From assembly GCA_018385315.1 (NCBI GenBank), contig JAHAZJ010000082.1:1-46149 (forward strand): 46,149 nucleotides of DNA. The letters run 5' to 3'. Source of the stretch: Treponema sp. (GTDB lineage Bacteria; Spirochaetota; Spirochaetia; Treponematales; Treponemataceae). The translations under genes and the position numbers were made by a program. Below, piece after piece: positions 4,669 through 34,311 of this stretch (position 1 is the stretch's first letter; each line of letters opens with the position of its first letter). The notes below the pieces were generated by a model that saw only the letters and a program-made list of their open reading frames with translations, made no database searches and had not been told where the DNA came from.

Positions 4669-6021
4669 TTATAAATATCTTACAAAAATAAATACTGTTG
4701 AAATTATCATTACAATAATTGTTGCAGGAACTGCTTTAGCACAATAAGTTCCCCATCCAACAGGATATCCAGCTTTACCAGCAACAGAAGTTCCAACAAC
4801 ATTTGCACTGGCACCAATTGGAGTTGCACTACCACCAATATCAGTACCCATAGAAAGAGCCCAGGTCATTGTTGTTAGACTAACTCCTGTTGTTGCTGCA
4901 AGGGATTGAATTACAGGAATCATTGTTGCGGCAAAAGGAATATTATCAATAAAGGCACTGGCAATTGCAGAAACCCAGATAATAATCGCTATCATTAAGT
5001 ATACATTGCCACCAGAGATTTTTCCAATAAAACCTGCAACTATTTCTAGAATACCAGTCTGTTCCAAACCACCAACAACTATAAAAAGTCCTAAAAAGAA
5101 CAAAATTGTTTTATAATCAACTTTTTTTATAATTTCTGGAATATGCTTTGGAGCTGAAAGTAAAGTAAGGATAGAAATAAATACACCAATTGTTGCAACT
5201 GTTAATCCTGTCATTGCATGAGTTACAAGAAGAATTACTGCACAACCAAAAATAAATGAACTTAAAATAAATCCTTTTTTATCAGTAATTGCTGACTCTG
5301 GAGTTGGAAATGTAGAAACATCAATAGATTCATCTCCTTTTAAATCTTTTTTGTAAGCAAAGAAGAAGAAAAGAACTGTAAAAATCATACATATACCAGC
5401 AATTGCACCAGTATTCATAATAAAGTCTGCAAAGGAATATCCAAAAGATGTACCAATAATAATGTTTGGAGGATCACCACACATGGTTGCAGAACCTCCT
5501 AAGTTAGCACAAAATATTTCTGAAAGAATCATTGGAAGGGGATTAAATTTCAGAAGCTGTGATAATTCAATTGTAACAGTTGACAGGAATAAAATAACTG
5601 TAATACTGTCAATAAACATTGCAAGTACACCAGACATAATCATAAATGTTACAAAAATTGGCAAAACTTTGTAATGAACCAGCTTCGCAAGACGCATACA
5701 AAGCCATCGGAAAAATCCTACACGAGCCATTCCTTCGACCATAATCATCATTCCTAAAATAAAGATGATTGTTGCCCAGTTAACCCCAGAGGATGATTCA
5801 TGAGACTCACCTGCTGAATACCAGAACCCTGATGTAAATATATTACGAACATTAAGAGTTTCAAGAGCAGCATCAAAACTGTGCATTCCTAAACCAAATA
5901 CTAACAATAAAGTTAATAATCCACACACAAGTGTAATATGATGACGCTCAAATATTTCGAGTATTATCATGATGAACATTACTACGAAAATAGTAACAGC
6001 TAAAATTTTTGCAACCAACAT
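4669..6021 (-). CDS. SLC13/ArsB/NhaD-type membrane permease
   Basis: Multi-span hydrophobic protein; CGDPPNIIIGTSFGYSFADF and FIDNIPFAATMIPV motifs of the ion transporter superfamily. Confidence 0.85.
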   Translation of the reverse strand: MLVAKILAVTIFVVMFIMIILEIFERHHITLVCGLLTLLLVFGLGMHSFDAALETLNVRNIFTSGFWYSAGESHESSSGVNWATIIFILGMMIMVEGMARVGFFRWLCMRLAKLVHYKVLPIFVTFMIMSGVLAMFIDSITVILFLSTVTIELSQLLKFNPLPMILSEIFCANLGGSATMCGDPPNIIIGTSFGYSFADFIMNTGAIAGICMIFTVLFFFFAYKKDLKGDESIDVSTFPTPESAITDKKGFILSSFIFGCAVILLVTHAMTGLTVATIGVFISILTLLSAPKHIPEIIKKVDYKTILFFLGLFIVVGGLEQTGILEIVAGFIGKISGGNVYLMIAIIIWVSAIASAFIDNIPFAATMIPVIQSLAATTGVSLTTMTWALSMGTDIGGSATPIGASANVVGTSVAGKAGYPVGWGTYCAKAVPATIIVMIISTVFIFVRYL

Positions 6022-6114
6022 AAATCAAATTATATCGATTGTGAAAATTATATTCAATTTCTTTATTAAAAAAATAACTTGCGAAATTTAGAATTTAAGA
6101 TATAATTTTTGTCT

Positions 6115-6702
6115 ATGCAATTTACAATTTTATTCTTCCTAAACAGCATGGGTTTTGGAATTGGCTTAGCAATGGATGCTTTTTCAGTGTCTATTGCCAG
6201 TGGTCTAAAAGAACAAAACATGAAACCACAAAGAGCTTTTTTTATAGCAGGAGTTTATGGCTTTTTTCAATTCATAATGCCAATGATTGGATGGGTTTGT
6301 GTTCACACTATCATTAATATTTTTGAAAAATTCCAACCTTTCATTCCATGGATTGCACTGGCTCTTTTACTGTACATTGGAATAAATATGATTGTCGAAG
6401 GTATTAAAAAAGGCACTGAAGAAGAAAACACAAAAGCATTAAGTATTTCTGTTCTTTTAATTCAAGGAGTTGCAACATCAATTGACGCCCTTTCCGTAGG
6501 CTTTACAATTGCAGATTACAATGGACTTATGGCTTTCATTTCATCATTAATTATTGCAATTGAAACTTTTATCATTTGTCTTGGTGGCCTTAAACTTGGT
6601 AAAAAAGCCGGTGAAAAGCTTTCAGATAAAGCCACAATTTTTGGTGGTGTTATATTAATTGCCATTGGATTGGAAATATTTATTAAAGGTATTTTCTTCT
6701 AA
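6115..6702 (+). CDS. mntP: Manganese efflux pump MntP family
   Basis: GFGIGLAMDAFSVSIASGL and VATSIDALSVGF repeats. Tracked start at 6109 is TTG; ATG at 6115 preferred. Confidence 0.9.
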   Translation: MQFTILFFLNSMGFGIGLAMDAFSVSIASGLKEQNMKPQRAFFIAGVYGFFQFIMPMIGWVCVHTIINIFEKFQPFIPWIALALLLYIGINMIVEGIKKGTEEENTKALSISVLLIQGVATSIDALSVGFTIADYNGLMAFISSLIIAIETFIICLGGLKLGKKAGEKLSDKATIFGGVILIAIGLEIFIKGIFF

Positions 6703-31601: not shown

Positions 31602-33425
31602 CTACATTTTTTCCAGATAAGGTACTAAAACAAGGTTCATTGCATTTTTAATAACCTGTAATGTACACTCAGCAAGATACAAACGAGCTCCTGCCAGTTT
31701 ATCATTACCTGCATTTACAATAGAACAAGTCTGATAGAATTTACTGAAAGCTTTTGCAGTATCATAAACATAAGCAGCAACAACACTTGGATCAAGATTT
31801 TCAGCACCCTTTTCAACAACAACTGGATAATCACCAAGAAGCTTAATTAAAGCCCATTCCTCTTCGCTGGAAAGCATTGCAACGGCTTCTGCACTGCTGT
31901 CTGTTTTAATTCCAGAAGCTTTAGCTTTACCAAGGATAGAATTAATACGAGCACCCATATACTGTAAATAAGGACCAGTATTTCCATTAAAACTTAAACT
32001 TTCTGCAGGATTAAAGAGCATATCTTTAATTGGAGTAGCCTGAAGCATGTAATAATGAAGAGCACCAAGCGCAACTTTTTCTGCTACATCATCTACATCT
32101 CCTACTTCTTCATCACGACCCCTTTCTTTAATAGCAGCCAATGCATCTGCATGTAAAGAATCAATCAAATCATCAGCATCAACTACAGTTCCTTCCCGGC
32201 TCTTCATACGACCAGAAGGAAGATTTACAAGACCGTAACTAAGGTGATAAAGTTTTTCAGCCCAATCAAAGCCAAGCTTCTTAAGAATGTGGAACAAAAT
32301 CTTAAAATGATAGTTCTGTTCAGAAGCAACAACATAAACCAGCTGATTAAAAGACCAGTCTGAGTGACGGCTGATTGCAGTACCAATATCCTGAGTTATA
32401 TAAACAGAAGTTCCATCTTTACGCAAAAGAACTTTTTCATGATTATCTTCGTCTTTTCCTTTACCAACAACATCAGTAACATCAATACGAACAGAACCGT
32501 CTTCTGCCTTAAAGAAAACTCCTTTTTCAAGACCTTTTAATATTTCATCCTTACCTTTAAGATAAGTTTCACTTTCAAAATAATATTTATCAAAACTGAT
32601 TCCAGTGCGGGCATAAGTTTCTTTCACACCATCAAAAGTCCACTTGTTCATTTTTTCCCAAAGAGCACGAACTTCCCGGTCCCCTGCTTCCCATTTAATA
32701 AGCATATCTTCTGCCATCTGGTTTGCTTCAGGATGAGCAGTTTCTGGCTTGTCTTTTTCACCTTTAAGATATTTATCAAATTCTACATAACACTGACCAA
32801 CAAAATGATCTCCTTTCATTCCAAGACTTTCTGGAGTATCACCTTTTGCTTCATGGAACATTTTATAAGCCAGCATAGATTTACAGATGTGAACACCCCG
32901 GTTATTAATTAAGTCAACCTTGTAAACATCTGCACCGGCAGCTTTAAGAATGCGGCTAACAGATTCACCAAGAGCATCATTACGAACATGACCAAGATGA
33001 AGTGGTTTATTTGTATTTGGAGAAGAGAATTCTATCATTACTTTGCGGCCTTCCAATGGCTTTTTACCAGACTGATTGAAAGAACCATAATTTTCGCCCT
33101 GTTTTGCAATGGCTTCCAAAATAGGAGCAGCAGCACCAGCTTTATCAAGTTTAATGTTTACATAAGGACCAACTGCAAGAATTTTTCCAAGTGAACATTC
33201 ACCAGCAAGTTCTGCCACACCTGCAGCAATCTGAGGAGGAGCCATTCGGAAAGATTTTGCAAATGCGAACATTGGAGCCCCCAGGTCTCCCATTTCAGGA
33301 TTTGGAGCAGCCTGAACTACAATAGCTTCAGCCTTTACTTCTTCCCCTTCAATCCCCTTAGCTTTAATAAATTCATTTACTGCCTTTGCAATAATTTCTT
33401 TAAATTCTGATTTAGAATCTGCCAT
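31602..33425 (-). CDS. argS: Arginyl-tRNA synthetase
   Basis: IEFSSPNTNKPLHLGHVRNDALGES signature; MKSREGTVVDADDLID. Confidence 0.96.
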   Translation of the reverse strand: MADSKSEFKEIIAKAVNEFIKAKGIEGEEVKAEAIVVQAAPNPEMGDLGAPMFAFAKSFRMAPPQIAAGVAELAGECSLGKILAVGPYVNIKLDKAGAAAPILEAIAKQGENYGSFNQSGKKPLEGRKVMIEFSSPNTNKPLHLGHVRNDALGESVSRILKAAGADVYKVDLINNRGVHICKSMLAYKMFHEAKGDTPESLGMKGDHFVGQCYVEFDKYLKGEKDKPETAHPEANQMAEDMLIKWEAGDREVRALWEKMNKWTFDGVKETYARTGISFDKYYFESETYLKGKDEILKGLEKGVFFKAEDGSVRIDVTDVVGKGKDEDNHEKVLLRKDGTSVYITQDIGTAISRHSDWSFNQLVYVVASEQNYHFKILFHILKKLGFDWAEKLYHLSYGLVNLPSGRMKSREGTVVDADDLIDSLHADALAAIKERGRDEEVGDVDDVAEKVALGALHYYMLQATPIKDMLFNPAESLSFNGNTGPYLQYMGARINSILGKAKASGIKTDSSAEAVAMLSSEEEWALIKLLGDYPVVVEKGAENLDPSVVAAYVYDTAKAFSKFYQTCSIVNAGNDKLAGARLYLAECTLQVIKNAMNLVLVPYLEKM

Positions 33426-33494
33426 GAATGGACTCCTAGTATGTAAAATAAGCCTTTTTATTATATATTTTTCTAGAAATATTTACAATGTAGG

Positions 33495-33705
33495 TTTAAA
33501 TTAAAGAAAAATAACAATCTTCACACAGCGTCTTAGAGTAAAAGTACTACCGCTACAACGTGCCTACAAAGTTGCTCGCTGAAGCTGTTTGGAAGTTATC
33601 CATCTCGCTGCGCTCGTCAGCTTCAGAGGCACTTCGTAGTCCCGTTTTCGCTCTCGTACTTTTACTCTAAGACTTCCTTGGTATTTTGATTTTTCTTTAA
33701 TTTAA
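33495..33705. repeat. Composite inverted-repeat element, copy 1 (complete)
   Basis: Outer 17-bp perfect IR TTAAATTAAAGAAAAAT (33496-33512)/ATTTTTCTTTAATTTAA (33689-33705); 18-bp perfect IR GTCTTAGAGTAAAAGTAC (33530-33547)/GTACTTTTACTCTAAGAC (33656-33673); inner CTGAAGCTG/CAGCTTCAG and GTGCCT/AGGCAC. Confidence 0.92.
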
Positions 33706-34311
33706 GCCCACACTTTCTTCTATTTTATTCAGGATATTTTCTAACTTTACTGCATAATTTGGGTCTGTTGCCCAGGTACCAGAAAGTCCTTCTATGGTTT
33801 CTATGTACTTTGTTTTATGGACCCAGGAATAACGAGGGTCAATAAGTTGATTTCTTAACTGTTGATCTTCTGTTGTTCCGTATGCTTGTAGATGCTGTAT
33901 ATGGGCTCTTACACCAAGTTGCATTGTAGCAAAGCTTTCCCCTGGATGTTCTGCATCCATGGCTCCTAATCCACAATAATTATGCATTTCTGGTGTAACA
34001 AGATTTCCAAATTTTAAATAACCAGTTTCCAGACACATTTGTGCAAAGGCTACTGAATAATTTACACCTTCTGCCATTCCCTCATAAACATAATAAGTTG
34101 CAATTTCGTAAACTTCTTTTTTATTTGCAGCAGGATTTTGTGAAAGAAAAAAATCTGCTAAATCTGTTGCCGTAAGAAAACCTGGTCCCATTATATTTCT
34201 TGATAGTGATATTTTATATGTGTCTTTTGAAAATAAAGAACTTATAGAAACGCAGGATGTGGCACATAGAATAGAAAATAAAATAGATAAATGAATAATT
34301 AACTTTTTCAA
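33697..34311 (-). CDS. Glucosaminidase-domain lipoprotein
   Basis: Lipobox-like signal MKKLIIHLSILFSILCATSC; SVAFAQMCLETGYLKFGN, NYCGLGAMD, GVRAHIQHLQAYG typical of glucosaminidase family. Confidence 0.85.
   Translation of the reverse strand: MKKLIIHLSILFSILCATSCVSISSLFSKDTYKISLSRNIMGPGFLTATDLADFFLSQNPAANKKEVYEIATYYVYEGMAEGVNYSVAFAQMCLETGYLKFGNLVTPEMHNYCGLGAMDAEHPGESFATMQLGVRAHIQHLQAYGTTEDQQLRNQLIDPRYSWVHKTKYIETIEGLSGTWATDPNYAVKLENILNKIEESVGLN

Follow-up and report, generated by a model that had tools for sequence, protein, structure and literature searches.

Introduction

Bacterial MITEs of the Correia or NEMIS type are TIR elements with a TA target, and ERIC elements are imperfect palindromes of more than 100 bp that occur between genes in multiple copies. 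Integron attC sites have the consensus ends RYYYAAC/GTTRRRY. REP sequences are units of 20–40 bp tagged with GTAG/CGTC (PMC3733652). Template switching homogenises the arms of inverted repeats and inverts the spacer between them (PMC8604942), and it makes double changes without wobble steps (PMC8794818).

Here we describe an inverted-repeat element in a Treponema sp. contig (JAHAZJ010000082.1, assembly GCA_018385315.1); the window is the whole 46,149-nt stretch that was analysed. We consider it likely that this locus holds a shortened version of a non-autonomous MITE-like element, bounded by TIRs, flanked by TA and devoid of an ORF, which carries a genus-wide DNA-hairpin module. The element is probably mobile.

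Results

Structure of the element

The element occupies 216 bp of the window (33493–33708), slightly more than the 33495–33705 originally proposed. It starts with GG at 33493, preceded by TA at 33491–33492, and finishes with GCC at 33708. One neighbour is argS (31602–33425, minus strand) and the other encodes a glucosaminidase with a lipoprotein-like signal peptide (33697–34311, minus strand), the TAA stop of which (33697–33699) lies within the right TIR. The original prediction of three nested levels of dyad symmetry was confirmed at exactly the positions given: an outer dyad (TTAAATTAAAGAAAAAT at 33496, complement at 33689), a middle dyad (GTCTTAGAGTAAAAGTAC at 33530, complement at 33656) and an inner dyad (CTGAAGCTG at 33579, complement at 33618), with asymmetric linkers between the outer and middle arms, as had been stated. 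Since the window contains eight perfect 15-bp inverted repeats within 250 bp, seven of them in the element, compared with a mean of 0.05 in a window-sized Markov control, chance is excluded as the source of the dyads. When folded with RNA parameters, the element is 8.5–9 SD better than shuffled sequences on either strand; it is without a gene-like ORF. Its architecture consists of TIRs (GGTTTAAATTAAAG..., TA-flanked), 18-bp inner arms and a hairpin core of about 108 nt that contains the motifs TACCGC, GTCCCGTTTTCGCTC and, at the apex (33604–33616), CTCGCTGCGCTCG. The features of this copy and of a second one at the end of the window are as follows.

33491–33492, no strand: TA dinucleotide beside the left TIR, a putative target site or the first bases of the TIR; TA precedes GGTTTAAATT at 43 of 59 distinct TIR ends in the host genome
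33493–33529, plus strand: left TIR region GGTTTAAATTAAAGAAAAATAACAATCTTCACACAGC, common to other copies and to the copy at the window end
33530–33547, plus strand: left 18-bp arm GTCTTAGAGTAAAAGTAC
33548–33655, plus strand: class II hairpin core (hairpin A); covariance model R2 matches 33540–33664 with 145.9 bits
33656–33673, minus strand: right 18-bp arm, the exact complement of the left arm
33674–33688, plus strand: linker TTCCTTGGTATTTTG, the start of the spacer of full-length copies, also found after hairpin A in C116, C206 and C214 with few changes
33689–33708, minus strand: right TIR, complement of GGCTTAAATTAAAGAAAAAT; supplies the TAA stop (33697–33699) of the minus-strand glucosaminidase gene
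45975–46011, plus strand: left TIR of the second copy, which gives the TAA stop (45979–45981) of a GGDEF gene
46012–46149, plus strand: class I hairpin (hairpin B) of the second copy, incomplete because the contig ends here; covariance model R1 matches 46024–46149 with 113.5 bits

The element had been said to share its left end with 45977–46149. The shared end is real, but beyond ...CACAGCG the second copy continues into the other hairpin (class I), and the contig stops before the copy is complete.

Copies in the host genome

Many further copies were found in the host genome, bearing out the proposal of a repeat family. This genome is a fragmented MAG (2.57 Mb, 223 contigs, 95% complete) that is broken at most copies; searches gave about 32 copies of hairpin A (class II) and about 30 of hairpin B (class I), many of them located at contig ends. 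The fuller copies have the arrangement TIR-CACAGCG-A-spacer-B (inverted)-CGCTGTG-TIR over about 590 bp, A and B each turning the same end toward the nearer TIR, and no ORF was seen in the full copies. The full copy is C116:4444–5044, less complete ones are present in C38, C81, C166, C206 and C214, and element size ranges from 216 to 600 bp across copies. In at least one copy (C31), a third hairpin replaces A. In C222 the core is inverted between its arms; template switching is expected to invert a spacer in this way (PMC8604942).

The window copy corresponds to a single-A version; on its right side, the TIR-like TTTTTCTTTA of the spacer is joined to the terminal TIR. This is the junction that a deletion would produce, suggesting that the copy is a shortened version of the TIR-A-spacer-B-TIR element; the deletion would have occurred between the internal TIR-like TTTTTCTTTATTCAAACC and the terminal TIR TTTTTCTTTAATTTAAACC.

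Target-site duplication can be checked at the few copies with both ends. TA is found on both sides in C116, C184 and L005, and the two-sided flanks differ from TA/TA in C222 (CA/TA), C127 (AA/TC) and the window copy (TA/CA); instead of being a duplicated target, TA could belong to the TIR itself. The number of copies, their TA-flanked TIRs and the lack of an ORF support the MITE-like reading that had been offered for the locus.

Some host loci depart from the common form. The apical loop of hairpin B is swapped for a hairpin-like insert (..TTAGGAAGTAAAGCTAAAAAATTGCTGTTCGC..GGTGTTTAA..) in L004 (C53), L047 (C122), L077 (C130) and L082 (C204), and inverted repeats of ACATACCAAA/TTTGGTATGT fill about 400 bp after an A hairpin in L010 (G000:C79, about 5865–6300). 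By eye, L013 (G000:C96) looks foreign to the Treponema bin and may be MAG contamination, its sequence resembling an archaeal ribosomal-protein gene that adjoins an IS-like ORF.

A genus-wide hairpin family

When relatives were searched by BLAST, matches were restricted to the hairpin cores. Covariance models were used for class I (R1, B-like) and class II (R2, A-like). R1 matches 60 of the 118 species genomes of the genus and R2 35, giving a union of 72/118, with copy numbers per genome that are lower bounds and reach at least 29. The folding is kept in these relatives, and in most species the hairpins occur without the GGTTTAAATT TIR. In a scan of the phylum (296 Spirochaetota genomes), both classes were present in one of 138 genera and in none of the 137 others. 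Named records with hairpins are gut, rumen and faecal Treponema MAGs, and L159, a sequence from G007 in the same genus, has an identical counterpart in a contig of Candidatus Treponema scatequi. The element is multi-copy, carries TIRs and has two related hairpin designs spread across the genus. No match to it was detected in plasmid, phage and viral collections, the exact TIR pattern was not found across the genome-contig collection, and no description of such an element in Treponema was found in the literature.

Hairpins of both classes are 108–150 nt long and follow a common plan: copy-specific arms, a pyrimidine-rich internal loop (CTCCC / CTCCTTCGC), a variable stem, an A-rich motif with a side hairpin (class I), a further variable stem, a GAAACTAT-like motif and a small apical hairpin. 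Sister species have a third design (GGCGGGACGCAG..AAAAAAGCC....GGCTTTTTTTCTGCGTCCCGCC and variants) in comparable intergenic positions: L348 (G145:C21), L349 (G146:C250) and L268 (about 590–760).

Covariation of the stems

Class I is 94% paired, with 834 double-changed cells compared with 241 in shuffled alignments and a covariation score of 0.634 compared with about 0.1 when slid. Class II is similar (267 double-changed cells versus 78 shuffled). This covariation is almost purely Watson-Crick. Among 3095 class I cells, 25 are G-T (0.8%) and 64 are A-C (2.1%), while in 27 Treponema tRNAs 49 of 585 pairs are G-T (8.4%) and none is A-C. Class II has 56 G-T cells, 36 of them at two positions, both with G-U as the most frequent pair. 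That G-T is no commoner than A-C is predicted by pairing at the DNA level or by arm-to-arm copying, and the near-absence of G-T amid strong covariation suggests that pairing is maintained at the DNA level and not as RNA. Since A-C exceeds G-T in class I, some weak selection at the RNA level, acting on the opposite strand, is strictly speaking still conceivable.

The arms are probably homogenised by template switching. Stems diverge between copies and match within a copy, as they would if one arm were copied onto the other by template switching during replication. L171 contains a small perfect hairpin in which a foot of the element is paired with its own complement.

A possible folded single-stranded site and candidate mobilising enzymes

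These data also raise the possibility that the hairpin is a folded single-stranded DNA site for recombination or transposition, attC-like or IS200/REP-like, with an enzyme that reads the unpaired motifs and moves the hairpin and with TIRs that are secondary. The structure is retained although the stem sequence varies freely, nearly all pairs are Watson-Crick, the unpaired columns of class I are more conserved than the paired ones (0.79 versus 0.69), and most species have the hairpin without the GGTTTAAATT TIR. However, the unpaired columns of class II show no excess conservation, and the enzymes that would be expected do not accompany the hairpins: Y1_Tnp (PF01797) occurs in 28/118 genomes and an integron integrase above cut-off in 34/118, with no association with hairpins in either case (Fisher p 0.5–1.0 and 0.3–0.8, respectively). 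Nor does any neighbouring gene recur around class I copies, where only small groups of related proteins were found. We regard a single-stranded site of this type as possible but doubtful. A variant, in which a new genus-specific class of mobile DNA hairpin is recognised in folded single-stranded form by some enzyme, colonises different TIR elements and has its arms re-matched by template switching, is advanced here tentatively, and we would put it a little lower still.

Two specific candidates were rejected: a Y1/RAYT link, for which there was no co-occurrence with hairpins, and an integron attC/IntI link, for which co-occurrence was likewise lacking and the attC end motifs were missing. The integron integrases above the curated cut-off (L409, L410 and 32 other genomes of the genus) are not hairpin-linked, and the host genome has none above cut-off. 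DDE_3, the IS630 transposase, is absent from the host genome, a fragmented, 95%-complete MAG broken at the copies, and in the same fragmented assembly no parent transposon with the same TIRs, which the original prediction had suggested looking for, was found among the TIR matches.

Genomic context and flanking arms

The hairpins lie between genes in all gene orientations and are frequent at gene 3' ends. Of 77 class I copies, 66 have a gene on either side and overlap no ORF (the gene pairs being 33 tandem, 18 divergent and 15 convergent). Nine are flagged inside ORFs, probably reflecting spurious ORFs across the hairpins. An orientation bias of class I copies is modest and not clearly significant (22 opposite, 11 same).

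In the host genome, 20 of 55 TIR ends coincide with the stop of an open frame of 100 codons or more, the stop falling either on the TA/G junction or in the initial 12 bases of the TIR. The share expected from random tolerated TA sites in the window is 8–16% (p about 1e-4 to 1e-9), under a null model that takes no account of selection against other sites. In L032, L034, L060 and L078 and at 33697 and 45981 of the window, the stop codon is provided by the TIR, either as TA/G or as ..GLN-stop with TAA. In C184, judging by its left and right flanks, the insertion appears to have cost a gene its last few residues.

The flanks of 79 class I copies have a mean of 12.2 matched bp, compared with 4.8 for flanks of different copies. 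In G069, G096 and G079 the hairpin lies inside species-specific TIR units, the ends of which match within a copy and differ between copies; nested dyads like those of the window copy are therefore typical. Orthologous sites in sister species carry other hairpins or other orientations, or lack both arms. Intergenic regions diverge quickly between species, and no clean empty site was seen at strain level.

One explanation for the locus-specific arms is that hairpins mark pre-existing bidirectional terminators, the element having entered the terminator loop and the arms being the old stem. Many arms do resemble A-tract..GC / GC..T-tract sequences, with long, GC-rich examples in L306 and L252. Against this, sister species lack both arms at L262 site 2, 18 of the 66 copies lie between divergent genes, and the same arms can be shared by copies with different outer flanks (L213/L228), so that we consider a terminator origin unlikely. 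Alternatively, the left flank could be copied during insertion itself to give the inverted arm, as an inverted target duplication. This would account for C167 and C204, where the left arm runs directly into sequence that elsewhere follows the right arm; yet a deletion at a 3-bp ACT repeat can give the same junction, such deletions are found in other copies, and the L262 sites of sister species are occupied by other hairpins or lack both arms, making this explanation rather improbable. A large structured RNA (a 3'-UTR element, sRNA or riboswitch-like), the other reading originally offered, would fit the very stable predicted fold, the strong covariation and the frequent position directly after genes, but is very improbable given that G-U wobble is almost absent among covarying pairs (0.8%, against 8.4% in tRNAs), that no Rfam family matches and that hairpins are also present in divergent intergenic regions, and in either orientation.

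Discussion

Under the reading that we favour, a shortened copy of a MITE-like element with a hairpin module, the TIR unit would be moved in trans by a transposase encoded elsewhere. The hairpin that it carries may act, or at least persist, as folded DNA, in which the unpaired motifs would be kept: the CTCCC/CTCCTTCGC feet, AACCGC with the side hairpin and TCGCTAC, GAAACTAT and CTCGCTTCGCTCG.

Strong covariation is usually taken as proof of a functional RNA; here it is nearly without wobble and fits arm copying at the DNA level. With tens of copies per genome in 72/118 species genomes, the family constitutes a natural data set on how long bacterial palindromes arise, persist and invert. The elements also shape the genomes of gut Treponema, in that they coincide with many assembly breaks of the host MAG and their TIRs supply gene stop codons.

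Comparison with known systems

Like MITEs of the Correia/NEMIS type, the element is short, lacks an ORF, is TIR-bounded and TA-flanked, occurs in multiple intergenic copies and can form hairpins. Unlike them, its interior consists of one or two modular hairpins that are also present across the genus without this TIR, and no parent transposase was found in the fragmented host assembly. It shares with the REP/REPIN sequences and their RAYTs (PMC3116915, PMC3733652) the form of dispersed extragenic DNA palindromes with several related families per genome, and possibly single-strand recognition; however, the hairpin is 110–150 nt long, the unit is not a short GTAG/CGTC-tagged stem, and the Y1 transposase does not co-occur. 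As in integron attC sites (PMC2727003), the folded DNA combines free stem sequence with conserved unpaired features, but the hairpin ends are, by inspection, CTCCC../..CTTCGC, without the R'/R'' core GTTRRRY/RYYYAAC, and the element is dispersed singly, with neither cassette arrays nor a link to IntI.

With ERIC, going by its general description, the element has in common an imperfect palindrome of more than 100 bp in multiple intergenic copies, and differs in its detection in a single genus and its nested TIRs. Finally, the double Watson-Crick changes, arm homogenisation and spacer inversion are those of inverted repeats subject to template switching (PMC8604942, PMC8794818). Those studies treat template switching as a mutational process, whereas in the present case it would operate on a family of dispersed repeats.
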